DNA of 64,000 bases from Tagaea sp. CACIAM 22H2 (lineage in GTDB: Bacteria; Pseudomonadota; Alphaproteobacteria; CACIAM-22H2): positions 1 to 64,000 of the forward strand of contig PVXE01000003.1 in NCBI GenBank assembly GCA_014444615.1, read 5' to 3'. The notes beneath the pieces were generated by a model. The model worked only from the letters and a program-made list of their open reading frames with translations, was not told where the DNA came from and ran no database searches. Shown in pieces: positions 43,642 to 54,521 of the stretch. A program made the position numbers and the translations under genes. Every line of letters begins with the position of its first letter. Within the stretch, counting starts at the first letter, position 1.

Positions 43642-43731
43642 GGACAGGTGGCCGAGTGGCTGAAGGCGTCAGTCTCGAAAACTGAAATACCGGCAACGGT
43701 ATCGTGGGTTCGAATCCCACCCTGTCCGCCA
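43642..43731 (+). tRNA. tRNA-Ser (anticodon CGA)
   Basis: A complete 90-nt class II tRNA. The acceptor stem is GGACAGG/CCTGTCC with discriminator G and encoded CCA at 43729-43731. The anticodon stem TCAGT/ACTGA encloses CTCGAAA, so the anticodon is CGA, which reads UCG serine codons. The long variable arm (about ATACCGGCAACGGTAT) is typical of tRNA-Ser. Its 3' end is the left attachment site of the mobile element that follows, and the element restores the CCA end. The original terminator seems to have moved to 51061-51094. Confidence 0.95.
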
Positions 43732-43733
43732 CT
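43718..43733 (+). repeat. Left attachment site attL (3' end of tRNA-Ser)
   Basis: CACCCTGTCCGCCACT occurs here at the end of tRNA-Ser and again at 51045-51060. This 16-bp direct repeat marks the ends of the integrated element. Bases outside the repeat differ (TCATG here, ACGCC on the right). Confidence 0.9.
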
Positions 43734-43853
43734 TCATGTTTCCTAGCGTCTCCCCCCGCTCGGGGGATCATTGAAAAGCCCCTTATATTCAGCGCTGGAT
43801 GCCTTGCCGCCTCAAGGCGTCTCGGGCAAGCTCATGCCTGCCCGTGGATCAGT

Positions 43854-43861
43854 TTGTGGAT
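43854..43861 (+). repeat. Putative integrase arm site, left end
   Basis: TTGTGGAT lies between attL and the integrase gene. The same word occurs twice near attR (50963-50970 and 50975-50982). Repeated short words flanking both attachment sites are typical of arm-type sites of tyrosine integrases. It is assigned by pattern only. Confidence 0.4.
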
Positions 43862-43885
43862 CGATCCATATACTTTGGATTGAAT

Positions 43886-45157
43886 ATGTCGAATATTAGA
43901 AACCGTCTTAATGCCCTAAGCCTCAAGGCGCTGGTTAAACCCGGCCTTTACAATGATGGCGGGGGCCTTGGGCTTCGCATCACTGCTCACGGTGGCCGCG
44001 CTTGGACGTTCCGGTACATGTTCGAGGGCAAGGCACGCGAAATGGGCCTGGGGAGTGCGGCAGATATCGCTCTCGCTCGTGCGCGTGAGCTTGCCGCTGT
44101 CGAACGCGCGAAGTTGGCGGAAGGGCTTGACCCCCTCGTAGAGCGCGCCAAGGCACAAGCCAAGCAAGCGGCCGAAGCAGCAAGTACCGTCACGTTCGAG
44201 AGCTTTGCGCGCACATACATTGATCGCCGTAAGGCGGCGTGGGTTAACAAAAAGCACCGCGCCCAATGGCTCGCAACGCTGGAAGCCTATGCCTTCCCCA
44301 CCATCGGCAAGGTCTCCGTCGCGGACGTTGATACCGGGATGGTGCTTGAGCTTTTGAATGCGATTTGGGTGTCGAAGCCCGAAACGGCGCGTCGCGTGCG
44401 TGGCAGGATCGAAACCATCCTTGATGCGGCGCGTGTCGAAGGGAAGCGCACAGGGGAAAATCCGGCACGCTGGCGCGGTCATCTGCAAGTGCTTTTGCCG
44501 GACCCGCGCAAGGTGCGCGCGGTGCTGCATCATGCGTCACTTGGCTACGCCGCTTTGCCGGAGTTTATGGCGAAGCTCAAGGCGCAGCCCGGCGAAGCTG
44601 CCCGCGCGCTCCGCTTCGCGATCCTTACCGCCGCGCGTACCGGCGAGATCATCGGCGCGACTTGGAGCGAGATAGATTTGGAGAAGCGCGAGTGGCGTGT
44701 GCCCGCGTCGCGAATGAAGGCGAAGCGCGAGCATCGCGTGCCCCTCTCCCCCGAGGCCGTCGCAATCCTGAAAGAGCAACTAGCTCTGCGCAAAGACGAG
44801 AAGATCGAACTCTCCGCCGATCACTACGTTTTCGGTTTGCCGGGTCAAGGTCTATCGAATGGCGCCATGCTCGCTTTGCTTGATCGAATGGGCGTGCGCG
44901 GCACGATCACCACGCATGGCATGCGCTCCACCTTCCGCACTTGGACCGCCGAACAGACCGCGTATCCGCGTGAGATCGCGGAAGCCGCTCTAGCGCATGT
45001 CAACGGTGATGAGGTTGAAGCAGCATATCAGCGCTCGGATTTCTTCGAGCGTCGCCGCAAGCTGATGGCTGAATGGTCGGAGTTTGCGACGAGCCCGACG
45101 ACGGAAAAACCGAAGCGCGGCAAAGTCATTTCGATTGGGGCGCGCAATGGCAAGTAA
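43886..45157 (+). CDS. int: P4-type tyrosine integrase
   Basis: A 423-residue site-specific recombinase. The N-terminal arm-binding domain (DUF4102 type) reads LNALSLKALVKPGLYNDGGGLGLRITAHGGRAWTFRY, and the core-binding SAM-like domain is around 95-190. The catalytic set is visible: Arg in TAARTGEIIGATW, the HxxR box in THGMRSTFRTW, the second His in LAHVNGDEVEAAYQRSD and the Tyr of the same segment. It should cut and join the tRNA-Ser sites at 43718 and 51045. ATG at 43886 gives the usual start; in-frame codons further upstream run into the attachment region. Confidence 0.93.
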   Translation: MSNIRNRLNALSLKALVKPGLYNDGGGLGLRITAHGGRAWTFRYMFEGKAREMGLGSAADIALARARELAAVERAKLAEGLDPLVERAKAQAKQAAEAASTVTFESFARTYIDRRKAAWVNKKHRAQWLATLEAYAFPTIGKVSVADVDTGMVLELLNAIWVSKPETARRVRGRIETILDAARVEGKRTGENPARWRGHLQVLLPDPRKVRAVLHHASLGYAALPEFMAKLKAQPGEAARALRFAILTAARTGEIIGATWSEIDLEKREWRVPASRMKAKREHRVPLSPEAVAILKEQLALRKDEKIELSADHYVFGLPGQGLSNGAMLALLDRMGVRGTITTHGMRSTFRTWTAEQTAYPREIAEAALAHVNGDEVEAAYQRSDFFERRRKLMAEWSEFATSPTTEKPKRGKVISIGARNGK

Positions 45158-45689
45158 ATCGAAGCGCCGCATCTCGTCTGCCGATTTTGTCGCGTCATTG
45201 ACTGCTAGCGAAAAAGAAGCCATCCGCGCTGCATGGGCCGAAGGCAACTTCGATCAAGTCCAATCGGCCTTCTTCCGCACTCAAAGCACTTCAACGAAAC
45301 GCAAAGCCGAGCGGGTGTTGCCGTTGATCGCAAAGCTCCGCGACGACTGCGAGTCACTTGCGAAGCTCCATGAATTTGGCCCATCGAAAAAAACATTCGC
45401 ATTCGGTCGTGCGGAAGAAATGCGCGATTTTCTCAAATGGCTTTCGCGGATCGAACAAGACTGGCAACTGCGGGCTGGTCGGAGCATCACGACGGGGAGG
45501 CCAAGCGTTGATGATCTCTATGTCCCGGTAGTTCGTACGGTCGGAGCCATCGCGCGTAAGCGCCAAATTCGCGTGACCTCTCAAGGCGCGTTTCCGATCA
45601 TCCTTGAAGCTATCGGCACAGAATTACGCCTTAAAGATTGGCGCCTGCCGAACTTTCGCACCTTAGGCCGCATCATCAACACCATGTAA
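45147..45689 (+). CDS. Hypothetical protein, co-expressed with integrase
   Basis: A 180-residue basic protein of unknown family. It starts MASKSKRRISSADFVASL and has two helical parts, a KRKAERVLPLIAKLRDDCESLAKL segment and a C-terminal part with the string RLKDWRLPNFRTLGRI. No enzyme motif is seen. Its start overlaps the integrase stop by 11 bases and a perfect terminator follows, so it is the second gene of the integrase transcript. A recombination or regulation accessory role is a guess from position. Confidence 0.6.
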   Translation: MASKSKRRISSADFVASLTASEKEAIRAAWAEGNFDQVQSAFFRTQSTSTKRKAERVLPLIAKLRDDCESLAKLHEFGPSKKTFAFGRAEEMRDFLKWLSRIEQDWQLRAGRSITTGRPSVDDLYVPVVRTVGAIARKRQIRVTSQGAFPIILEAIGTELRLKDWRLPNFRTLGRIINTM

Positions 45690-45717
45690 AAAAGATCAGC
45701 GCCGGGCGATCTTTTTT
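45688..45717. terminator. Bidirectional intrinsic terminator after the integrase operon
   Basis: AAAAAAGATC (45688-45697) and GATCTTTTTT (45708-45717) pair perfectly over 10 bp around a 10-base GC-rich loop. The T-run on the plus strand ends the integrase transcript right at the stop codon; the A-run gives a matching T-run on the minus strand. Confidence 0.85.
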
Positions 45718-45792
45718 CCCGGATGTGCGGGCACGCGATACGGCCCACCATGAAGACACGCCGTGAGAAACGGCAATCTTCAGAGGTGCCCC

Positions 45793-46011
45793 ATGAACCC
45801 GATCCCGCTGCCGCCCGCCGCCTTGTCGATTTCCGAAGCCTGCGCTTACGCGCGTCTCTCGCGTGCCACTCTCTATCGCTTGATCGGTATTCCGAACTCG
45901 CCGCTGCGTACTTCGAAGATCGGCGCGCGTCGCGTCGTCCTGCGTGAAAGTCTCGACGCGCTTCTGGCGACTGGTGCGGCGATCAACGCCGTCCCTTCGA
46001 AGGCCGCCTAA
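45793..46011 (+). CDS. AlpA-like helix-turn-helix DNA-binding protein
   Basis: A 72-residue protein with one MerR/AlpA-type winged helix. LSISEACAYARLSRATLYRLIG is the helix-turn-helix, followed by LRTSKIGARRVVLRESLDALLA, the wing and helix with a conserved arginine pair. AlpA proteins activate integrase or act as excisionase in P4-like elements. ATG at 45793 has an AGAGGTG ribosome site. It is the first gene after the integrase terminator, so it begins a separate transcript that continues to 46024. Confidence 0.85.
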   Translation: MNPIPLPPAALSISEACAYARLSRATLYRLIGIPNSPLRTSKIGARRVVLRESLDALLATGAAINAVPSKAA

Positions 46012-46023
46012 GGTTTCGGTCGA

Positions 46024-46854
46024 ATGCCTTCGCCCGCCCCCGTTGCGCGTCTGCAATGGCTTGCTCGCATCGCCGTTGACCCCGATGCGTCGAAAGGTGC
46101 TGTCGCCATCGCGGCGGCCTTGGCAATTCATCCGACTGCGCCGGGCGGCGATCTCTATCCCTCCGTCCCTGGCCTTGCACAGCGCGCGATGCTGACGCGC
46201 CGTGGCGCGCAAAAGGCTATCGCTGCTCTCGCAGGGCTTGGCTATCTCGCCGTCGAACAGGGTGGCGGCCGTGGCTTCAAAAATGCCTTTCGCATTGTCG
46301 AAACGGCGAATGGCTGTTCGCCCATCTGTGCATTGGAAACGATGAACGATGGTTCGCCTATTCCGAGCGGAAAAGGTGAACCGCAAAGCACGAAAGGGCG
46401 AACGGCAGAGTCGAAAACGGCGAACGGTGGTTCGCCCGAACCCGGTATCGAGCCCGGTATCGAACCCGGCCGGTCGGTCGCGGATGCTTTCGACGTGGAA
46501 GGCTGGACAAATCGCGCGGGCCGCTATGGCAAGGGGCGTGAGCAACGCAAGGAAGCCATCAAGAAGCTCCGCGATGCTGGTGCGACCAACGACGACATGG
46601 CGGCGATCTTCAAGTGCCTCCCGTCGCCCGACACGCTCGGCAAGGTCGAAGGTGCGAAATGCTTCGACGAAGCCGTGGCGACGTTCGTTTCGCGCAATCG
46701 CAAGCCCGATATGGACTTCGTTTGGGAGTCTCGCATGAAGGCTTGGACCGAGAAGAACTTTTGGACGCCCGCTTGGGGTCCGGCTCCGGATCAGCGCGGA
46801 ACCCAGGTTCCGATGAAACTTCGTAACGGGGGCCTTCATGTTGCCGCTGAATGA
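46024..46854 (+). CDS. Winged-helix replication-like protein of the element
   Basis: A 276-residue protein. The first about 95 residues form a winged helix (AAALAIHPTAPGGDLYPSVPGLAQRAMLTRRGAQKAIAALAGLGYLAVEQGGGRG), like the helix-turn-helix domain found in phage and plasmid replication starters. A flexible linker has three related words, ANGCSP (95-100), MNDGSP (107-112) and ANGGSP (133-138), then a GIEPGIEPG repeat. The C-terminal domain has FVWESRMKAWTEKNFWTPAWGPAPDQRG, a common ending of such proteins. A role in starting element replication is likely but not proven. Confidence 0.7.
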   Translation: MPSPAPVARLQWLARIAVDPDASKGAVAIAAALAIHPTAPGGDLYPSVPGLAQRAMLTRRGAQKAIAALAGLGYLAVEQGGGRGFKNAFRIVETANGCSPICALETMNDGSPIPSGKGEPQSTKGRTAESKTANGGSPEPGIEPGIEPGRSVADAFDVEGWTNRAGRYGKGREQRKEAIKKLRDAGATNDDMAAIFKCLPSPDTLGKVEGAKCFDEAVATFVSRNRKPDMDFVWESRMKAWTEKNFWTPAWGPAPDQRGTQVPMKLRNGGLHVAAE

Positions 46855-47197
46855 AATCGCGCCCGTTGCTGCCGGGCGCGCGGACAAGGGCGCTGGTGGT
46901 TCGGCGTGCGCGTTGCGCAGTGGCGGGCCGGGATTTCTCCGCTCGGCTCGCCATCCCTCGTCCGACTTGATCGCGCCCATCGTCGCCCATGTGCCCGTAA
47001 TCGAGCGCGCGGCCCGTCTGCGCGCGTTGGCTGCGTTGGTGGGTGTCATGGCGCGCCCCAAGCCCCTCACGCTTCTCCAAGCCTTGCGCGAGGCCGAATG
47101 CAGCGATGTTGCGCTCGCCCTAGCCGACGACGAACTCGACCGCCTCTCCTCTCTCGACCAACGCCGCGTGCTTAGCGCGTGGACGAACTGTTTCTAA
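46838..47197 (+). CDS. Hypothetical small protein of the element
   Basis: A frame of 119 residues that overlaps the previous gene by 17 bases. The first 70 residues look compositionally random (Gly, Ala and Arg rich), while the last 49 (MARPKPLTLLQALREAECSDVALALADDELDRLSSL...) look like a real helical protein. A start at the internal ATG (47048) is therefore possible. No family recognised. A strong ribosome site for the next gene lies 10 bases after its stop. Confidence 0.45.
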   Translation: MLPLNEIAPVAAGRADKGAGGSACALRSGGPGFLRSARHPSSDLIAPIVAHVPVIERAARLRALAALVGVMARPKPLTLLQALREAECSDVALALADDELDRLSSLDQRRVLSAWTNCF

Positions 47198-47215
47198 ACC
47201 TCGAAAGGGCCGACA

Positions 47216-47860
47216 ATGCAGACCATCGAAAAAATTCCGAACGTGGATCAAGTCGCTCACGCCAATCGTCGCTTGAACGAGATCGCCAGCAAGATCGGTG
47301 ATTTGCGTCAACGCGAAGCCCGCGCGCTTGCCGAACGTCGCAGCATGCCGCAACCGCGCGATGCCTATGATCGCGATCAGATTGCCGCGCAGGATCGCAC
47401 GGTCCTCGCCTTGTCGACCCAAATTGGCGCACTCGAAAACGAGGCGCGCACGCTGGCCGTTGTCGTCGAAGATCATAACCGCCAGCAGGCCGCCCACCGC
47501 GCCCGCGAGAAGGCAGCCGAAGCCGCCCGCGACCGCGACCTCGCTGCCGATTTGGCGGTGAAGCGTATGGAGATCGCGCGCACGATCGACAAGACCCTCG
47601 CGGACCTTGCTGTCCAGTTTTCGACGTTCGAGAATTTGGGCAACGAGTTGGCCGCACTGGAAGCCGTGACGAAACTTTCGTCCGGCAATCTGCGCTCTGA
47701 TCGCGCGATGCGTGCGGCCGTCGCTGCGACCGGCGAATTGCGCCTCGCTACGATCTTCGGTCACGCCAACTTCGCCGATAGCACCGGCCGCCTTCACGAC
47801 GACCAGCGCGCCTTGCTCGCTCACCTCATTCCCGCTCCGACCGCCAGCGCGGCGGAGTAG
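47216..47860 (+). CDS. Coiled-coil hypothetical protein of the element
   Basis: A 214-residue protein, nearly all helical. Residues about 15-130 show heptad-like spacing with many Arg, Glu and Ala (IASKIGDLRQREARALAERR and EKAAEAARDRDLAADLAVKR), so a long coiled coil is likely. No catalytic motif is seen. It begins with ATG at 47216 after an AAAGGG ribosome site. Together with the next gene it could be a structural or scaffolding-like pair, but there is no direct evidence. Confidence 0.6.
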   Translation: MQTIEKIPNVDQVAHANRRLNEIASKIGDLRQREARALAERRSMPQPRDAYDRDQIAAQDRTVLALSTQIGALENEARTLAVVVEDHNRQQAAHRAREKAAEAARDRDLAADLAVKRMEIARTIDKTLADLAVQFSTFENLGNELAALEAVTKLSSGNLRSDRAMRAAVAATGELRLATIFGHANFADSTGRLHDDQRALLAHLIPAPTASAAE

Positions 47861-47886
47861 TTGAAGCTCTGAAAGGATATCGAACA

Positions 47887-48507
47887 ATGGAACTCGAAAA
47901 CTTTGGCTCTACCGCCTTCGTGACTATTCGCAAGGCCCGGTCGTTCAACGAGATCGAAGTCGCGAAGAAGTCGGCTGCTCGCGAACTTGGCGATCAAATC
48001 AAGAAGGGCGTCGAGCAAGCCTTCGCGCGTCATGGCGTCATTCTCAAATCCGCGCCGGGTGCGACCTCCCGCACCGAACCGTTGCCCGTTCAGCGGATCG
48101 AGCGCGAACGCACCGCGTCGGATATTTACGTCGAGATCACCACGAAGGTTCAGGCGATGCGCAAGGACGGCGAAACGCTCACGATGGCCTGGGATCGCGC
48201 GATGAACGACCCCAAGGTCAACGAGTTGTACGTCGGCTATCTCGCCGCCCGTACCCGCGAAGGCGACAACGGCGGCGTGAGCAAGTCCCTGGCAATGGCG
48301 CGTGAACAAACGCGCGAACGTGCGAAGGCCGAACGCTTGAGCATCGAGCAAGAAATCGAGCGTCAGGCCGTCGAACTGCGCGCCCGCTATCCGATGATGA
48401 CGATGGAAGCGGCGCGCTCGAAGATCATCGAGGCCGACAAAGCGCTCTATACCCAGTGGACCCTCGCTGCCATGCGCGAGAAAGACCCCGGTATCCAGGG
48501 CGTTTAA
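47887..48507 (+). CDS. Hypothetical protein of the element, helical
   Basis: A 206-residue acidic-basic helical protein with a good ribosome site (AAAGGA). The middle has TKVQAMRKDGETLTMAWDRAMNDPKVNELYVGYL and the end ELRARYPMMTMEAARSKIIEADKALYTQWTLAAMREKDPG. Segments like YP-x-MT-x-A-x5-(A)-ADKALY resemble parts of phage proteins near capsid or protease genes, but the match is from memory and weak. No function is assigned. Confidence 0.55.
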   Translation: MELENFGSTAFVTIRKARSFNEIEVAKKSAARELGDQIKKGVEQAFARHGVILKSAPGATSRTEPLPVQRIERERTASDIYVEITTKVQAMRKDGETLTMAWDRAMNDPKVNELYVGYLAARTREGDNGGVSKSLAMAREQTRERAKAERLSIEQEIERQAVELRARYPMMTMEAARSKIIEADKALYTQWTLAAMREKDPGIQGV

Positions 48508-48573
48508 CGGCTCCTAGACGGCCGATTACGGCCCTTAACGGTCCCTGCGCGCACGGTCAAAACGGCACAAGCC

Positions 48574-48837
48574 ATGACGAAAGCGAAGAAAACCAAGCCC
48601 CATACCCCCCAAATGCCCGCGCGCCGCGTCGGGCGGTTGGATACGCTTGGCGGGATCGTGACCGAGTTGGGCCGGGTCTATCGCGACTGCCGTAATGGCC
48701 GCACGTCGTCCGGTGACGGTGCGAAGCTGGCGTACATGCTGGGCACGTTGCGCGCGACAATCGAAACCGCCGATCTGGAAGGCCGCCTCGCCGCGCTTGA
48801 AGCCGAATTGCACGAGGGCAAGTCGAATGCCGATTAA
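48574..48837 (+). CDS. Small hypothetical protein of the element (87 residues)
   Basis: An 87-residue protein with a basic start and a conserved-looking core RRVGRLDTLGGIVTELGRVYRDCRNGRTSSGDGAKLAYMLGTLRATIETADLEGRL. Similar VYREARSG...(L)AYVL type small proteins are common next to terminase or HNH genes in prophages of alphaproteobacteria, to my memory; the role is not known. The stop overlaps the next gene by 11 bases. Confidence 0.6.
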   Translation: MTKAKKTKPHTPQMPARRVGRLDTLGGIVTELGRVYRDCRNGRTSSGDGAKLAYMLGTLRATIETADLEGRLAALEAELHEGKSNAD

Positions 48838-49264
48838 TCGCGCGCGCATCGTGAAGATCGAAGCCAAGCTCCGCCGCGAAGTGGCGTTGCGCCGGAAGAT
48901 GCTACCCTTCGAACGATTGGCGGCCGACGACACCGCGCACCCGGCGCATCGTGCGGCGGCGTGGCGCAAGATCGGCGATCTGTGGACGGAAGCAGCGCGC
49001 AGCAGCCGCGAGAACTCGGCAGCACGCGACGGCGCGTTTAGTCGCGCGCGCGCCGCGTATTCCAAAGCCGATAGCTTGGCGCCGGAACCCAGCGCCGTGT
49101 TGCGTCAACGCCTTGTCGAGATCATCGAAACTGGCGGCCCCGTCACCCCTATGCCGCCGCTGCATCCCGCTTTTCCGAGCAAACCGACGAATGAGGAAAC
49201 CTTGGGCCGCATCGTCGAGCGGTTGAGCGCGCTTCGCCGCGCGCATCTGTCGAACCTTAACTAG
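48827..49264 (+). CDS. Hypothetical protein of the element (145 residues)
   Basis: ATG at 48827 overlaps the previous gene, which favours coupling. The 145-residue product is helical and rich in Arg and Ala (RARIVKIEAKLRREVALRRKMLP at the start), with a proline-rich middle (GGPVTPMPPLHPAFPSKPTN) and a last helix RIVERLSALRRAHLS. No family is recognised. The open frame reaches further upstream but only as a shadow of the preceding gene. Confidence 0.5.
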   Translation: MPINRARIVKIEAKLRREVALRRKMLPFERLAADDTAHPAHRAAAWRKIGDLWTEAARSSRENSAARDGAFSRARAAYSKADSLAPEPSAVLRQRLVEIIETGGPVTPMPPLHPAFPSKPTNEETLGRIVERLSALRRAHLSNLN

Positions 49265-49268
49265 ACCA

Positions 49269-49499
49269 ATGGCCGCCCCGGTCCCTGACGCTGCCCTGGC
49301 GGCCGATACGGCTTGGATTGCGCGAATGCTTGAAGCCGAGTGGGGGCATCATCCCGCCGGGGATCGCGCCAAGGTCATTGGGGCCATCCGCCGGGTCCGC
49401 GACGAACTCCGGCGCCGGGCAGCCAGTCCTACACCTGCCAAACCGGCCCGCGCCGACTCTGCGGCGGCCACTGGCCCATTCCAGGGCGTCGGGCGCTAG
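49269..49499 (+). CDS. Small hypothetical protein of the element (76 residues)
   Basis: A 76-residue frame starting four bases after the previous stop. It has a helical N-terminal part (DAALAADTAWIARMLEAEWG, then DRAKVIGAIRRVRDELRRR) and a low-complexity Ala/Pro tail. It may be a real last gene of the small-gene run. There is no recognised family and no strong ribosome site. Confidence 0.4.
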   Translation: MAAPVPDAALAADTAWIARMLEAEWGHHPAGDRAKVIGAIRRVRDELRRRAASPTPAKPARADSAAATGPFQGVGR

Positions 49500-49563
49500 G
49501 GATGTGGCCCGGACGGCGCCTTGCCCTTCCTAGCGAGTTCTAGGCCGGTTTAGACTCCGGCCC

Positions 49564-49779
49564 ATGATCCGGTTCGTCGCCTTCGCATTGGTCGCGCTAA
49601 TCGCCATACCGACGCTCGCAGCCGATCCGCCGCCGCCGGTTTGGGCCGGTGATGCACCGGCCGAATGTCGTCAGACTTGGGAACACCTAGCCGAGTGCTT
49701 CGATAAGCGAAGCGGTCGGAAGGTCGCGGCATGCCGGTACGATCACGTCGCGGGCAGGTGGACCTGCACACGCATTTGA
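49564..49779 (+). CDS. Small secreted protein of the element (71 residues)
   Basis: A 71-residue protein with an N-terminal signal peptide (MIRFVAFALVALIAIPTLAA, cleavage near LAA-D). The 51-residue mature part has four cysteines (in ECRQTW, ECFDK, ACRYD and WTCTR), so two disulfides are possible. No family is recognised. A secreted cysteine-rich protein is unusual cargo for an element without conjugation genes. Confidence 0.5.
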   Translation: MIRFVAFALVALIAIPTLAADPPPPVWAGDAPAECRQTWEHLAECFDKRSGRKVAACRYDHVAGRWTCTRI

Positions 49780-49810
49780 ATAGGAATACTAAAATTTACT
49801 TCGCTTGAAT

Positions 49811-50392
49811 TTACTTCTTCTTACCGCCGGTTTTTGCGGGAGAAGTCGGGCGCTCAGGCTTGTTGGCGTTTCCATGCAATCTGCCTCGAATGAATAGCCC
49901 GCATGCGCCAACAAACGTTGCGCCTACCATCACACTAGCAACCCAAGGCTGTCCAATATACGAGCAATACAATGCGCCAGCGCAGAGCATTACAGCAACG
50001 ATCAGTCCAAAAAATTGCCCTCTTTTAGTGTCCGCGACTTGCGCGTCCAAGGCACGATTTTCCCAAGATTGACGATGATCTTGTTCTTTTTCCGCCATCA
50101 CTAAAATGCGCTGCGCGGCGTCAGGCAAAACTGCGTTGTACTTAGCAAAATGATCCGGATGCGGCAGGGGACCGCTATATTGAGCAACGGTGCTTCTTAC
50201 AGCACTGATAACAATCTTTGCCTTTTCAGGCGGCAGCGACGGCGGAAGGGCCTGAAGTATTTCCGCTTCAAGCGTCGGAATAGAAGCGGGCTCAAGTGCG
50301 CCGCTCGCCGAAATATTACCATTCGGTTTCGCAGCTAAGTCCTGCCCGCCTGTAGAGCCCACGGACTTCTTACCGCGCTTCGGCTTCTTCAT
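49811..50392 (-). CDS. DUF2335 membrane protein
   Basis: A 193-residue protein. The family-specific part is SGPLPHPDHFAKYNAVLPDAAQRILVMAEKEQDHRQSWE, followed by two hydrophobic segments (FFGLIVAVMLCAGALYCSYI and VASVMVGATFVGACGLF) and a basic tail. DUF2335 proteins are found in phages and mobile elements and their role is unknown. The N-terminal region is a charged linker (KPKRGKKSVGSTGG). ATG at 50392 is chosen over a GTG at 50494. It is on the opposite strand to the other element genes and next to attR, which is where cargo genes often sit. Confidence 0.82.
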   Translation of the reverse strand: MKKPKRGKKSVGSTGGQDLAAKPNGNISASGALEPASIPTLEAEILQALPPSLPPEKAKIVISAVRSTVAQYSGPLPHPDHFAKYNAVLPDAAQRILVMAEKEQDHRQSWENRALDAQVADTKRGQFFGLIVAVMLCAGALYCSYIGQPWVASVMVGATFVGACGLFIRGRLHGNANKPERPTSPAKTGGKKK

Positions 50393-50585
50393 CGACTTTA
50401 CGCATTGCACTACGCAAATCGTTTCCGATTGCGCGCCAGTCACCACGGAGACCGTCACCACGATACTTGGCAAAAGAATAGTGATTGCTGGCACTATGAG
50501 AAATCGCCAGCGTGCTTAAGGTCAGAAAGAAGCTTGACCAAAAAGCCTTCTTAGAGAGCAACGCAATATCCTCATGAGATGGCAT
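50370..50585 (-). CDS. Small protein with one hydrophobic segment, upstream of DUF2335 gene
   Basis: A 71-residue frame from ATG at 50585 whose 3' end overlaps the DUF2335 gene start by 23 bases. It shows a hydrophobic stretch AFWSSFFLTLSTLAI (about 14-28) and a charged, Arg/Glu-rich tail. Overlap with the next gene suggests a two-gene unit, but the small size and lack of a known family keep this uncertain. Confidence 0.35.
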   Translation of the reverse strand: MPSHEDIALLSKKAFWSSFFLTLSTLAISHSASNHYSFAKYRGDGLRGDWRAIGNDLRSAMRKVDEEAEAR

Positions 50586-51044
50586 GGCACTTCTCCCAAT
50601 CATTTAGACAGTTAGGGTGCCAATTAAAGTCCGCAAGCCAATACATTTCAGTGTATCGGCTTGATTCTGCGGGATGGTGCTCACGCGCCGGAACCTGTGT
50701 CAACTGCTCCAATCTTCTTTAGGACTGCGCGAAGCGACAAGGCCAGTTTTGTGAATATGTGAAACCGGCAAGCGTAGTGTCCTATGTGGTTCTCTCAAGA
50801 TTTGCGGTCCGCAAAAAAGAAAAATTTTTCTATATCAAAGGCTTAGATGCGAATTGCACAAGAGGCCTTCACGTCTGAAAGACTTAGGTTTCAAAGAACT
50901 TGACCCAACGAATGGCAGGGTTGCGCACCGTCTCCGATTGTAGCCTTGCATCGCATGCGAAATTGTGGATTAGATTGTGGATCATATGTTTTGTGATTTT
51001 TTAACATATTGATAAACAATACATAATTCCAGAAATAAGGCGGA
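50586..51044. other. Non-coding right end of the element
   Basis: No convincing gene is seen in this AT-rich stretch. It probably holds the promoter of the minus-strand DUF2335 unit (near 50600-50700) and, close to attR, the repeated integrase-type words at 50963-50982. Confidence 0.5.
50963..50982 (+). repeat. Putative integrase arm sites, right end
   Basis: TTGTGGAT occurs at 50963-50970 and 50975-50982, 12 bases apart from start to start, with a partial copy TTGTGATT at 50991-50998. The same word is at 43854-43861 near attL. Evenly spaced copies beside attR suit arm-type integrase binding; this is inferred. Confidence 0.4.
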
Positions 51045-51060
51045 CACCCTGTCCGCCACT
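51045..51060 (+). repeat. Right attachment site attR
   Basis: The sequence CACCCTGTCCGCCACT repeats the tRNA-Ser 3' end of attL (43718-43733) over 16 bp. It marks the chromosome/element junction. The preceding GGCGGAC makes a local hairpin with GTCCGCC, absent at attL. Confidence 0.9.
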
Positions 51061-51094
51061 ACGCCCGAGCATCCCAAAAGGGATTCTCGGGCGT
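51061..51094 (+). terminator. Displaced tRNA-Ser terminator hairpin
   Basis: ACGCCCGAG-C-ATCCC, loop AAAA, then GGGAT-T-CTCGGGCGT forms a 15-position stem with one mismatch, followed by CGTGCTTTCT. It begins directly after attR, that is, where the sequence downstream of the tRNA gene would have been before integration. It probably ended the tRNA-Ser transcript originally and now stands 7.3 kb away. Confidence 0.6.
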
Positions 51095-51224
51095 CGTGCT
51101 TTCTGGGGACAGATAGATTTTTTCATCGACAAACAACTGCGGCACGTCCAGCAGAGAACGACTTCGATCTCGCGTCGCGGCCCCAAATCGATATTGCGTA
51201 AGCAGGATCGCAGCGGGTGCAAAT

Positions 51225-52016
51225 TCATTTCGCCGATATGGCATTCAGCGCCTTCAACGTCGCAACCATCTTGTCGGCTGCCTCTACATCTTCAGCGAAC
51301 TTCTCAGGAAAACCCGCATCAGCTGCAAGAATATCGCAGCCGTTCACAATGTTTTGCCAATCGAGCGCCGCCGTCGCAAGTGCATCAATCGCTTTGATAA
51401 GTTCTTTTCGCACTAAATGCTCGTCGCGAGGGATTTTGGAACCGATGACGGTCCTGAGTCTGTTACGCGCGAAAGCTAAGCATGTCTCAAGATCGTAAAG
51501 TTCGACGCTTTCGTAAGGCAATTCAGTCGCAATCATCGTCTGGACCGCATCGGGGATGGGCGCGAACGTGAAATTGATCGTGCTTTGATCGATCTGTGTA
51601 GCCTTCGTAAGGAAAACCTCTATTTCGAGATCGTTTGCTAACTCCAGCGCTTCGACCAATCCTTTGAGACCCAAGTACCTATCCTGCACAACGTTATAAA
51701 AGGCTGATGCCAAAGCGGAGCGCTGCCTTCTTTTCGTACGCTCGGCTGAAGTTATCTGCCAGCGGGCAACGAGAAACGCGCCAAACACACCAATAGCACT
51801 ACCAATAATACTCGCGATTGCTTCTTTCCAATTACCTTCGCGAAAAAATTTTGCGGCTTCCACGAGGAGCTCGGCGGTGCCCTGTCGCGCGTCTAGATAC
51901 ATCGCCCAGATTAAAATTCCTAAGGTGATGCAGAAATATATAAATAGATCGAGCCGCCAGCGCGGACGTAACTCAAAAAAGGAACGAATGACCGATCGGC
52001 GCGATTTTCTTGCCAT
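51225..52016 (-). CDS. Hypothetical membrane protein
   Basis: A 263-residue protein. After a basic start (MARKSRRSVIRSFFELRPRWRLD) come two hydrophobic segments (LFIYFCITLGILIWAMYL and IASIIGSAIGVFGAFLVARW) about 45 residues apart. A long soluble, helical C-terminal domain of about 170 residues follows (RLKTV-type helices, DLETCLAFARNRLRTVIGSKI). No family is recognised. ATG at 52016 is preferred to an upstream codon that adds an unlikely Cys/His-rich start. Base composition is lower in GC than most of the window. Membrane-anchored helical proteins like this occur in mobile or defence regions, but no specific system is recognised. Confidence 0.6.
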   Translation of the reverse strand: MARKSRRSVIRSFFELRPRWRLDLFIYFCITLGILIWAMYLDARQGTAELLVEAAKFFREGNWKEAIASIIGSAIGVFGAFLVARWQITSAERTKRRQRSALASAFYNVVQDRYLGLKGLVEALELANDLEIEVFLTKATQIDQSTINFTFAPIPDAVQTMIATELPYESVELYDLETCLAFARNRLRTVIGSKIPRDEHLVRKELIKAIDALATAALDWQNIVNGCDILAADAGFPEKFAEDVEAADKMVATLKALNAISAK

Positions 52017-52289
52017 ACCGCCGAGCCTAGGATCAGTATAAATATTCGACAAGTGCCAGTTTTGTCGTTTGCTGCGGCCGCGTTTCGAGCAATGATCATC
52101 GCCGCGCACCTCGCCGAAGTGGGGCCGATGCTGCCGGTAGCATCCGAGGCATTCGATGCAGGAACAGCGATCATGCACCGCCAAGTCGCGGACTCTTCCG
52201 GCACGTACTTCGACGTTCTCGCGGGCTAGCTGTACCTACGCGTAGTAATCGCGCCACACTAATCTGCCACCACGCCTGCTAGCTAGCGT

Positions 52290-53669
52290 TTACAGCTTCG
52301 CGGGGCGACTATGCTCACTTTCCTTGAACTCCATGTATTTCGGCGTCTTCGAAATTCCGGGGTAGTTTGCCTTTGAATGCTTTCGAATTGAGGAGCAAAG
52401 CTTTTCATGCAAGCTTCCAAGGCGCTCTACATTCAGCATGTCCTGAGCGATATTCCGGAAAACACGGGCAAATGGTTCGTTTTTATAAAATCGAAAAAGT
52501 TGATCGAGCTTCGTGCTGAAACCCAGCGTTGGCCCTGTCAATCCAACAGACAATGAAAACGACAATCCATTTTCGGTTGATACCGCATACTTTTTCAAGA
52601 GTTTGGCGCACGACTGATCTAGGTAATTCAGGATACGGTTGATTTCCTGCACTCGATCCGCTGCAGCTAAGTGACCGAGATTGTTGAAGATCGTTCGGCA
52701 ATCCTGAAATTCGCTCGCTTTTCGCATCGAAAGCGCAAGATCAATGCACTGCTTTGGATTATCTGTTTTCGATATCAAATAGGCAGTGAAAAAGGGTAAG
52801 CGCATAGCAAATCTTGCCCGTCCAGTTGGCTCAAGTATGGACGATAGGGCCTGCTGCGACTTGGCCTTCAGCGCCTCCAGCAAGCCGGTCAGTTGCGAGG
52901 GATGATCGATCCGACAACAACTCTCACAGAAAGCGTCACGAAGCGGTGCCAAATAAGCATCCGCTCCTTCCTTGTGCGCAACTGCATTGTAAAAATACGA
53001 CCGCTCGGCAGCCCAACCATATCCGAACAGAAGGCGTGCTAACGCGCTTTTTGCATCTTCGCGCTTATATTGAGGGTTATTTGAGGCAAGTGCATGAACA
53101 AACTCTTTGACGTCCTTAATGTCGGGGCGTCCTGCGATGTTCAACGCCGGTCGATGATTTGTTTCCGCTGCAACGACTTCACGATCAACACCCTCATTGC
53201 GGAACATACTGTCTATTGATGTTTCGTAGCTTGCGTACTTCGGATTTTCGACCAAGTAGGAAAGGGTTAAATATTCGCTTGAAACCCAAACGTCCCATCT
53301 CAACTGAGGATTGATTCGAAGGGCTTCAAAAAATCTCACTACGTCACCTGCTGGCTTGGAACCCTCGAATGAAAAAGTCATGCTACGTGCAAATTGTGCC
53401 GCATCAGTCGCAAGCGACGAATACGCAGCTTGGTCTATCTTGATAAACCCAATTAAATCAAAGTTCTTAAGCCTGCCCGCACGAAACTCATCCTTGTAGT
53501 CATCGACGCCGAGTAACTTGTCGCTAAATAAAATTGCAGTTACAAGTTTCTCAAGACAGAGAATATCGTTGTCGACATAGTTCAAATTCATTATCTGGCT
53601 AACCCCGGTGATGCGCTCAACACCACTAAGTGTCGCGTTATCTACAAGAACTAGTCGATTAGTCGTCAT
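52290..53669 (-). CDS. Large hypothetical protein
   Basis: A 459-residue soluble protein with low GC codon use. It starts MTTNRLVLVDNATLSGVERITGV, and its middle shows helical stretches with conserved-looking acidic and aromatic residues (FARSMTFSFEGSKPAGDVVRFF, LRWDVWVSSEYL). A later part has CESCCRIDHPSQLTGLLEALKAKS with three cysteines. I do not recognise a domain. It is not related by sequence to its neighbours. It stands alone between a minus-strand membrane protein and a small plus-strand gene outside the element border. Confidence 0.6.
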   Translation of the reverse strand: MTTNRLVLVDNATLSGVERITGVSQIMNLNYVDNDILCLEKLVTAILFSDKLLGVDDYKDEFRAGRLKNFDLIGFIKIDQAAYSSLATDAAQFARSMTFSFEGSKPAGDVVRFFEALRINPQLRWDVWVSSEYLTLSYLVENPKYASYETSIDSMFRNEGVDREVVAAETNHRPALNIAGRPDIKDVKEFVHALASNNPQYKREDAKSALARLLFGYGWAAERSYFYNAVAHKEGADAYLAPLRDAFCESCCRIDHPSQLTGLLEALKAKSQQALSSILEPTGRARFAMRLPFFTAYLISKTDNPKQCIDLALSMRKASEFQDCRTIFNNLGHLAAADRVQEINRILNYLDQSCAKLLKKYAVSTENGLSFSLSVGLTGPTLGFSTKLDQLFRFYKNEPFARVFRNIAQDMLNVERLGSLHEKLCSSIRKHSKANYPGISKTPKYMEFKESEHSRPAKL

Positions 53670-53802
53670 GCGATACCCTAGCTAAAATAATTAAAGGTCG
53701 AAGCATTTTACGCCAAGATCGGCCCAAACTGGACGCCGGAATTCAACCTAGCCGGCAAAAATCGCTTGCGCTACTATTGACGGGAAGCGAGAGGGCACCG
53801 CC

Positions 53803-54132
53803 ATGATTGTTGTAAATCAGCAGTGGGGAGTTACTGAGGCTGGGATTGAGGCCATAGAAGGGGGCCCAGCACCGGAAGGTATTACCAGCAGATATTTGGT
53901 TGATGCGAAGCGGCTCTTAGAAATCACTAAGCGCCCAAACGGCACGTTTTACGATTGGCCCGTGCATATGGCAGAAAAGACATGGGTTGATCCAAAGGCA
54001 TTTTGTGAGGCGTTTGAACGAGCGCTGAAGTATCATTTGGAAGATTGGCAGTCACAAGTTAACCAACAGATGCTGCATGACAGCTGCATCGAAGCTCAAC
54101 GAATCGCAAAAGCAAGACATCAAAGAAGGTGA
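53803..54132 (+). CDS. Small hypothetical protein (109 residues)
   Basis: A 109-residue, slightly acidic protein. It starts MIVVNQQWGVTEAGIEAIEGGPAPEGITSRYLVDAKRLLEIT and ends in a basic helix (IEAQRIAKARHQRR). No signal peptide or membrane part. An AGAGGG-like ribosome site precedes it. The family is unknown, and low GC content suggests it was acquired with its neighbours. Confidence 0.5.
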   Translation: MIVVNQQWGVTEAGIEAIEGGPAPEGITSRYLVDAKRLLEITKRPNGTFYDWPVHMAEKTWVDPKAFCEAFERALKYHLEDWQSQVNQQMLHDSCIEAQRIAKARHQRR

Positions 54133-54521
54133 TTTGTTTCAAAGTTCAATAGTTGGACAATTTTCGGTTGCCATCGCCTCGCGCTCTTCGGAGAGATCCC
54201 ACGGCTCAATTACGCGCTCGCGCGCGCTTGGTCTCGCAAAGTTAAAACTCCATAACGGGCGCGAGTACTGCGCACGAAATGCGCTTCCGGTGGGGCCATG
54301 CCGGACCACAGCAAGTCACAAGCGAACAAAGCAGCGCACTCGGTCATGCAAAGCGCATCATCCGAGCCAATACGCGAAGCGTCCTTGGCTCCCAAAGCGC
54401 ATCCGCCTTTTGCCCTGCGACCTCCCACCGAGCGACTGGCTTATCGAACGTGCGCAGCCACATCCCTGGCGCGGGCGTCGGCGTGTCGTCGTTCGGCCGC
54501 CAAAGGTGCCGTGACGCCGCC
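54133..54521. other. Stretch without a recognisable gene
   Basis: About 390 bases. Composition rises towards the normal GC level near 54250. Short frames exist on both strands, but none has a family match or a clear ribosome site. No copy of the tRNA-Ser attachment repeat is present here, so no second element border was found. Confidence 0.5.

Follow-up and report, generated by a model that had tools for sequence, protein, structure and literature searches.

Most of the phage satellites characterised so far are from enterics, vibrios and Gram-positive cocci. Minimal satellites have been shown experimentally in the Vibrionaceae, as phage-inducible chromosomal minimalist islands (PICMIs), and excision of one of them, PICMI115, requires AlpA, Int and the gene overlapping int (PMC10803314). 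Among the phage-inducible chromosomal islands (PICIs) of Gram-negative bacteria, AlpA drives induction of EcCICFT073, and some members carry only the small terminase subunit (TerS) and depend on the large subunit (TerL) of a helper (PMC6092414). The transfer-messenger RNA (tmRNA) islands I23, I44 and I55 of Pseudomonas are transduced by a jumbo phage, and I55 provides a precedent for an RNA-gene island without transfer genes that is packaged by phage (PMC12595487). Here we describe a 7.3-kb element in the tRNA-Ser(CGA) gene of the alphaproteobacterium Tagaea sp. CACIAM 22H2 (genome G000), contained in the first 64,000 nucleotides of contig PVXE01000003.1 (the window). A literature search found no paper on such elements in Alphaproteobacteria. 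As judged from its sequence, the element was inserted by a tyrosine integrase and has exact ends, and it can probably excise and copy itself. We think it slightly better than an even chance that this compact integrative element lives as a helper-dependent phage satellite, best read as working like a PICMI or a minimal PICI, with a helper, induction and packaging as presumed parts of its life cycle.

Ends, integration site and gene content

All features lie on the forward strand unless noted. The target is an intact tRNA-Ser(CGA) gene, located by ARAGORN at 43642–43731, whose 3' end forms the core of the left attachment site (attL), CACCCTGTCCGCCACT, at 43718–43733. The same 16-mer forms the core of the right attachment site (attR) at 51045–51060, and these are the only two copies in the window; by our own arithmetic, a second exact copy would arise by chance in 64 kb with a probability of ∼1e-5. 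A sister genome, G015, which is 94% identical across the flanking gene and tRNA, holds the empty site: its tRNA is followed directly by ACTACGCCCGAGC, corresponding to the right flank in the window (88% over 58 bp). G014, from another species of the genus and 96% identical over the same stretch, carries a related 8.6-kb element in the same tRNA, with the same 16-mer at both ends. The empty site and the same-core element thus confirm the ends independently, and the exact 16-bp repeats in tRNA-Ser claimed by the original prediction, made from the DNA letters of the window, are upheld. The attR core lies within a perfect inverted repeat, GGCGGACA-CCC-TGTCCGCC, which is also present in G014.

Just inside each end, in both the window and the G014 elements, there are arm-like pairs of TTGTGGAT or near variants, 12 bp apart. 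The left arm-type integrase sites (43844–43862) comprise two copies of GTGGATC at 12-bp spacing, including one full TTGTGGAT at 43854, and the right sites (50963–50983) comprise two copies of TTGTGGAT at the same spacing, a pair repeated in G014. The window has three exact copies of TTGTGGAT, and all fall at the element ends, where 0.014 would be expected. With an intact tyrosine integrase, a duplicated tRNA 3'-end core and an empty site in a relative, the locus has the properties of a site-specific tRNA element. The integrase, att cores, arm-type sites and sister-species empty site also make it improbable that the element is a genomic island that has become domesticated or immobile, an explanation that would suit the rarity of the element: full relatives of its genes g6 and g7 are found only in G000 and G014 among 23 genomes of the order.

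The low-GC stretch at 51060–54500 was considered as part of the element and rejected, as the empty site of G015 sets the boundary at 51060 and no tRNA-Ser repeat occurs in the stretch. This region (51104–54510; GC of about 0.48–0.51), between attR and a PQQ-dehydrogenase-like gene, holds two uncharacterised genes (51225–52184 and 52290–53669, both on the reverse strand). It is missing from G014 and G015, in which other sequences of ∼1.2 kb occupy its place, and constitutes a separate variable region with no tRNA-Ser repeat as a border. Past attR, G014 has another tRNA-Ser 3' end, incomplete at 17 bp (L006:4843–4859), which is likely the relic of an earlier insertion into the same tRNA.

The first gene inside attL, int (43886–45157), encodes an intact 423-residue tyrosine integrase with three Pfam domains, Arm-DNA-bind_3, Phage_int_M (1.6e-29) and Phage_integrase (2.6e-18), and matches PHROG_1 at 6e-52. 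It is overlapped by 11 nucleotides by g2 (45147–45689; 180 residues), which varies among relatives and has no family above cut-off in Pfam, PHROGs, NCBIfam or PADLOC; a single-sequence AlphaFold model of g2 was unusable (predicted local distance difference test score of 42.7). There follow a 72-residue AlpA-like regulator or excisionase (45793–46011; Pfam HTH_17 1.1e-7, TIGR01764 excise 2.7e-4) and rep (46024–46854), a winged-helix, lambda O-like replication initiator (PHROG_391, O-like, 1.3e-6; HTH_36 3.6e-5, just under cut-off). The family matches bear out the intact integrase, AlpA-like regulator and replication-like protein that had been proposed; a PDB sequence search with the initiator and AlpA was uninformative. 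Within rep there are three near-palindromic 23-nucleotide iterons, AAACGGCGAATGGCTGTTCGCCC and its kin, at 46301–46323, 46337–46359 and 46415–46437. The origin iterons of phage lambda also lie inside gene O, and we therefore read those in rep as a putative origin.

The remainder of the element comprises g5 (46838–47197), a small protein with no family in Pfam, PHROGs or NCBIfam; g6 (47216–47860), a coiled-coil protein with only weak, sub-threshold family matches; g7 (47887–48507), a helical-repeat-like protein; g8 (48574–48837), considered below; g9 (48827–49264), an uncharacterised protein with a short match in G014, whose gene overlaps g8 by 11 nucleotides; g10 (49269–49499), small, uncharacterised and conserved in G014; and g11 (49564–49779), a small, apparently secreted, Cys-containing protein. 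The low-GC accessory end is occupied by g12 (49811–50494, reverse strand), a DUF2335 membrane protein (Pfam PF10097 5.8e-19), and g13 (50370–50603, reverse strand), a small doubtful open reading frame (ORF) overlapping it. Assignments of g6 as a terminase small subunit (phrog_2414, 0.019) or as SMC-like were rejected as coiled-coil noise.

Scans of ten genes against Pfam, PHROGs and NCBIfam, and of g11–g13 against Pfam only, found no capsid, portal, large-terminase or relaxase family, and PADLOC found no defence system among the element genes tested. The original prediction had seen no capsid, terminase, relaxase or secretion genes; this holds for capsid, large terminase and relaxase families, but is qualified by the link of g8 to small terminases.

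The g8 domain and small terminases

Outside the genus, the g8 sequence is found as the C-terminal part of DUF5681 proteins. Circularity was limited by using a profile built from three plasmid DUF5681 proteins and a Roseomonas protein, all found without g8. This profile recovers g8 of the window at E = 1.7e-5 and g8 of G014 at 3.2e-5, the best unrelated match among 475 window ORFs being 0.15; a wider profile recovers g8 at 1e-10. Two Roseomonas mucosa plasmids encode a fusion of the g8 domain (E = 4e-28) with a genuine small terminase, which matches Pfam Terminase_2 (PF03592) at 3.1e-33 over residues 34–173. In phage records the terminase part has 427 matches, none of which covers 80% of the protein, and that search thus showed no phage small terminase with the C-terminal addition. 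Besides the small terminase, these plasmids (NZ_CP025065 and NZ_CP147885; 24–28 kb) carry ParA, an integrase and an HTH_17 protein, with no large terminase or capsid among their annotations, and are possibly satellite plasmids.

Of 30 DUF5681 loci examined in Alphaproteobacteria, 12 have a directly adjoining TerL gene, one of them in an island of the host genome, and because of this adjacency we infer that DUF5681 fills the small-terminase position. Among these loci, DUF5681 genes with the g8 domain have no TerL beside them, and elements with this domain may carry a terminase-related adaptor without the terminase motor. As a stand-alone copy of the C-terminal domain of DUF5681 proteins and of the TerS fusion, g8 is a candidate packaging adaptor; an assignment as a complete small terminase was rejected, as the DNA-binding half is absent. 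Of the genes that it could not place, the original prediction expected some to exploit a helper. One of them, g8, does carry a domain that elsewhere forms part of small-terminase-type proteins; the exploitation of a helper is something we infer.

DUF5681 genes were also seen in other settings. On G000 contig C35 (L105:8655–11965), an island has consecutive ParB/methyltransferase-like, DUF5681 and large-terminase-like genes close to those for a serine recombinase and a DNA methyltransferase, with no capsid genes evident in the vicinity. The 13-kb Shigella flexneri plasmid NZ_CP055032, with integrase, toprim, VapE-like, ParA, DUF5681 and “phage baseplate” genes, is apparently another capsid-less satellite-like replicon. 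An IMG/VR match with DUF5681 (L146) is plasmid-like, with ParA and no TerL.

A satellite life cycle can be proposed from these families. A signal from a helper phage would raise AlpA, upon which AlpA and Int, perhaps with the product of the overlapping g2, would excise the element as a circle. The winged-helix initiator would bind the iterons in its own gene and recruit the host or helper replisome, yielding many copies. In what is the weakest step, g8, alone or with the overlapping g9, would dock on helper TerL and so bring element DNA into helper capsids. The 3' accessory genes, encoding the secreted g11 protein and the g12 membrane protein, may form a variable cargo with a protective role for host or element.

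Mosaic relatives and the satellite reading

Between the window and G014, the integrases are 85% identical overall (66% over the first 110 residues and 91% over the remainder), and identities for the other shared proteins are 76% for AlpA, 46% for g6, about 40% for g7, 48% for g8, 47% for g10 and 71% for g11. The G014 element differs in g2 and at the accessory end, and its initiator is swapped for a DnaD-like helicase loader (PHROG_2514 2e-13). The overlap with int is 11 nucleotides in both elements, 4 in L037 and 8 in L083.

No relatives turned up in IMG/VR or in 84,980 genomes when these were scanned with degenerate patterns for g6, g7, AlpA and g11, and spread was therefore measured by whole-genome profile searches. 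The g8 profile has matches in 8 of the 289 genomes sampled across Alphaproteobacteria, the host included. Around such matches there are further elements at tRNA-Ser in G064 (6.97 kb), at tRNA-Arg in G139 (5.78 kb) and at both tRNA-Ser and tRNA-Leu in G127, as well as an int-AlpA-toprim-DUF3987 arrangement in G307. A 6.98-kb tRNA-Lys element in G020 comprises, by inspection, int, AlpA, toprim, AAA, RuvC-like and DUF5681 genes. G016 holds a compact 7.45-kb element at tRNA-Ser (L035:6580–14031); it occupies the same tRNA-Ser but is different, with its integrase at the far end and in the opposite orientation. The two G127 elements (L082 and L086) have 2361 bp in common, 85% identical at the nucleotide level and with the DUF5681 gene among them, but their integrases are unrelated and their replication genes differ. 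Elements of 5.8–8.6 kb with exchanged integrase, replication and cargo modules thus recur at tRNA-Ser, -Lys, -Leu and -Arg. The element had been described as of unrecognised type; no named family fits it, but it does belong to this recurrent class of compact int-AlpA-rep elements.

Exchange of modules between integration backbones points to mobile-element behaviour rather than to a single decayed prophage. An O-like or DnaD-like initiator with an AlpA/excisionase is typical of temperate phages, as would be expected if the element were the early region of a prophage with its structural half deleted. Yet both att ends and an intact integrase are kept, 87% of the interior is coding, and the G014 relative shares the size class and gene order. 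The independent 5.8–8.6-kb relatives also lack structural genes, and a deletion product would not be expected to recur at several tRNAs. We consider this origin quite unlikely, and the phage satellite or small hitch-hiking element that had been suggested fits better, given the PICMI-like anatomy, the module-swapped relatives and the terminase link of g8, although no resident helper prophage was found.

Several other results weigh against a satellite life. In the host genome (144 contigs, 92% complete), in which no helper prophage was recognised, a PF03237 search found a single TerL-like gene, in an island that has no obvious structural genes. The element DNA has only three short, weak matches to the rest of its own genome, which do not establish a shared cos or pac site. 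The element has no primase, and g8 is only the C-terminal half of a DUF5681/TerS protein, with the DNA-binding half missing. The core proteins have no match in IMG/VR, the initiator none in phage or plasmid records, G014 g7 and g8 none in phages, and g8 none in plasmids. A virulent helper, as with PICMIs, would leave no genome trace.

The missing matches in IMG/VR and phage records, together with the lack of a proven helper-specific gene, would also suit a small integrative replicon that moves without hijacking a specific phage: a conjugative element might mobilise it in trans, using an unrecognised origin of transfer, or it might spread through natural transformation or generalised transduction. 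Small “non-mobilizable” plasmids that have ParA and an integrase also encode DUF5681 proteins. Against this stand the absence of a relaxase in the family scans, the satellite layout of AlpA, Int and initiator with a variable int-overlapping gene, and the tie of g8 to terminase-type proteins, leaving such a replicon rather unlikely. The helper-dependent satellite is the reading we retain.

More speculatively, these elements could represent an undescribed, class-wide group of 5.8–8.6-kb alphaproteobacterial satellites, in which an exchangeable g8 domain, alone, after DUF5681 or fused to a canonical TerS, recruits helper TerL without a full satellite TerS. If true, this would allow satellites of soil, plant-associated and marine bacteria to be searched for by their signature (a tRNA, int, an int-overlapping gene, AlpA, an initiator and a g8/DUF5681 domain, TerL being absent). 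It would likewise offer a concrete test of packaging for a satellite with no recognisable packaging gene, and a functional hypothesis for DUF5681 as a protein in the small-terminase position.

Comparison with known satellites and islands

Like PICMIs, the element is small and has a tyrosine integrase, an uncharacterised int-overlapping gene (g2, which matches PICMI iolg in position), an HTH_17 AlpA, a replication gene and accessory genes, with no capsid-remodelling genes; the integrase and AlpA (PF12728) that together help to define PICMIs are both present. PICMIs, however, have a DUF3987/DUF5906 primase, for which family scans gave no match in any element gene, whereas here there is an O-like initiator with iterons inside its gene. 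PICMIs also insert at fis, and this element sits in tRNA-Ser. With Gram-negative PICIs such as EcCICFT073 (PMC6092414) it shares an integrase at one end, AlpA, a replication gene and small size. It differs in that there is no Pri-Rep primase, the initiator having no primase domain, and in that g8 falls short of a full TerS, having just the C-terminal domain of such a protein.

AlpA and an integrase are also shared with P4-like satellites (PMC8628076), but Pfam and PHROG searches found no homologues of Psu, Sid, delta or the alpha primase-helicase. The same databases revealed none of the hallmarks of capsid-forming PICIs (cf-PICIs) or prophages (capsid, portal, TerL and tail genes), and the family scans none of those of integrative and mobilizable elements (IMEs) or integrative and conjugative elements (ICEs), namely relaxase and conjugation genes. 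By the defining features tested, the element is not a PICMI, P4-like satellite, cf-PICI, prophage, IME or ICE. It resembles I23, I44 and I55 in having an RNA-gene site, an IntY-type integrase and AlpA, without transfer genes; those islands are much larger and have Pseudomonas-specific core genes (YqaJ and RadC).

The tRNA-Lys element of G020 and the tRNA-Arg, -Leu and -Ser elements of G139, G127 and G064 have different replication modules, with toprim and AAA genes or a large replication-type protein, and most have the full DUF5681 N terminus. In common with the window element, they combine an integrase and a replication gene with a DUF5681/g8-domain gene, and most have a recognisable AlpA; they measure 5.8–7 kb where both ends were located.

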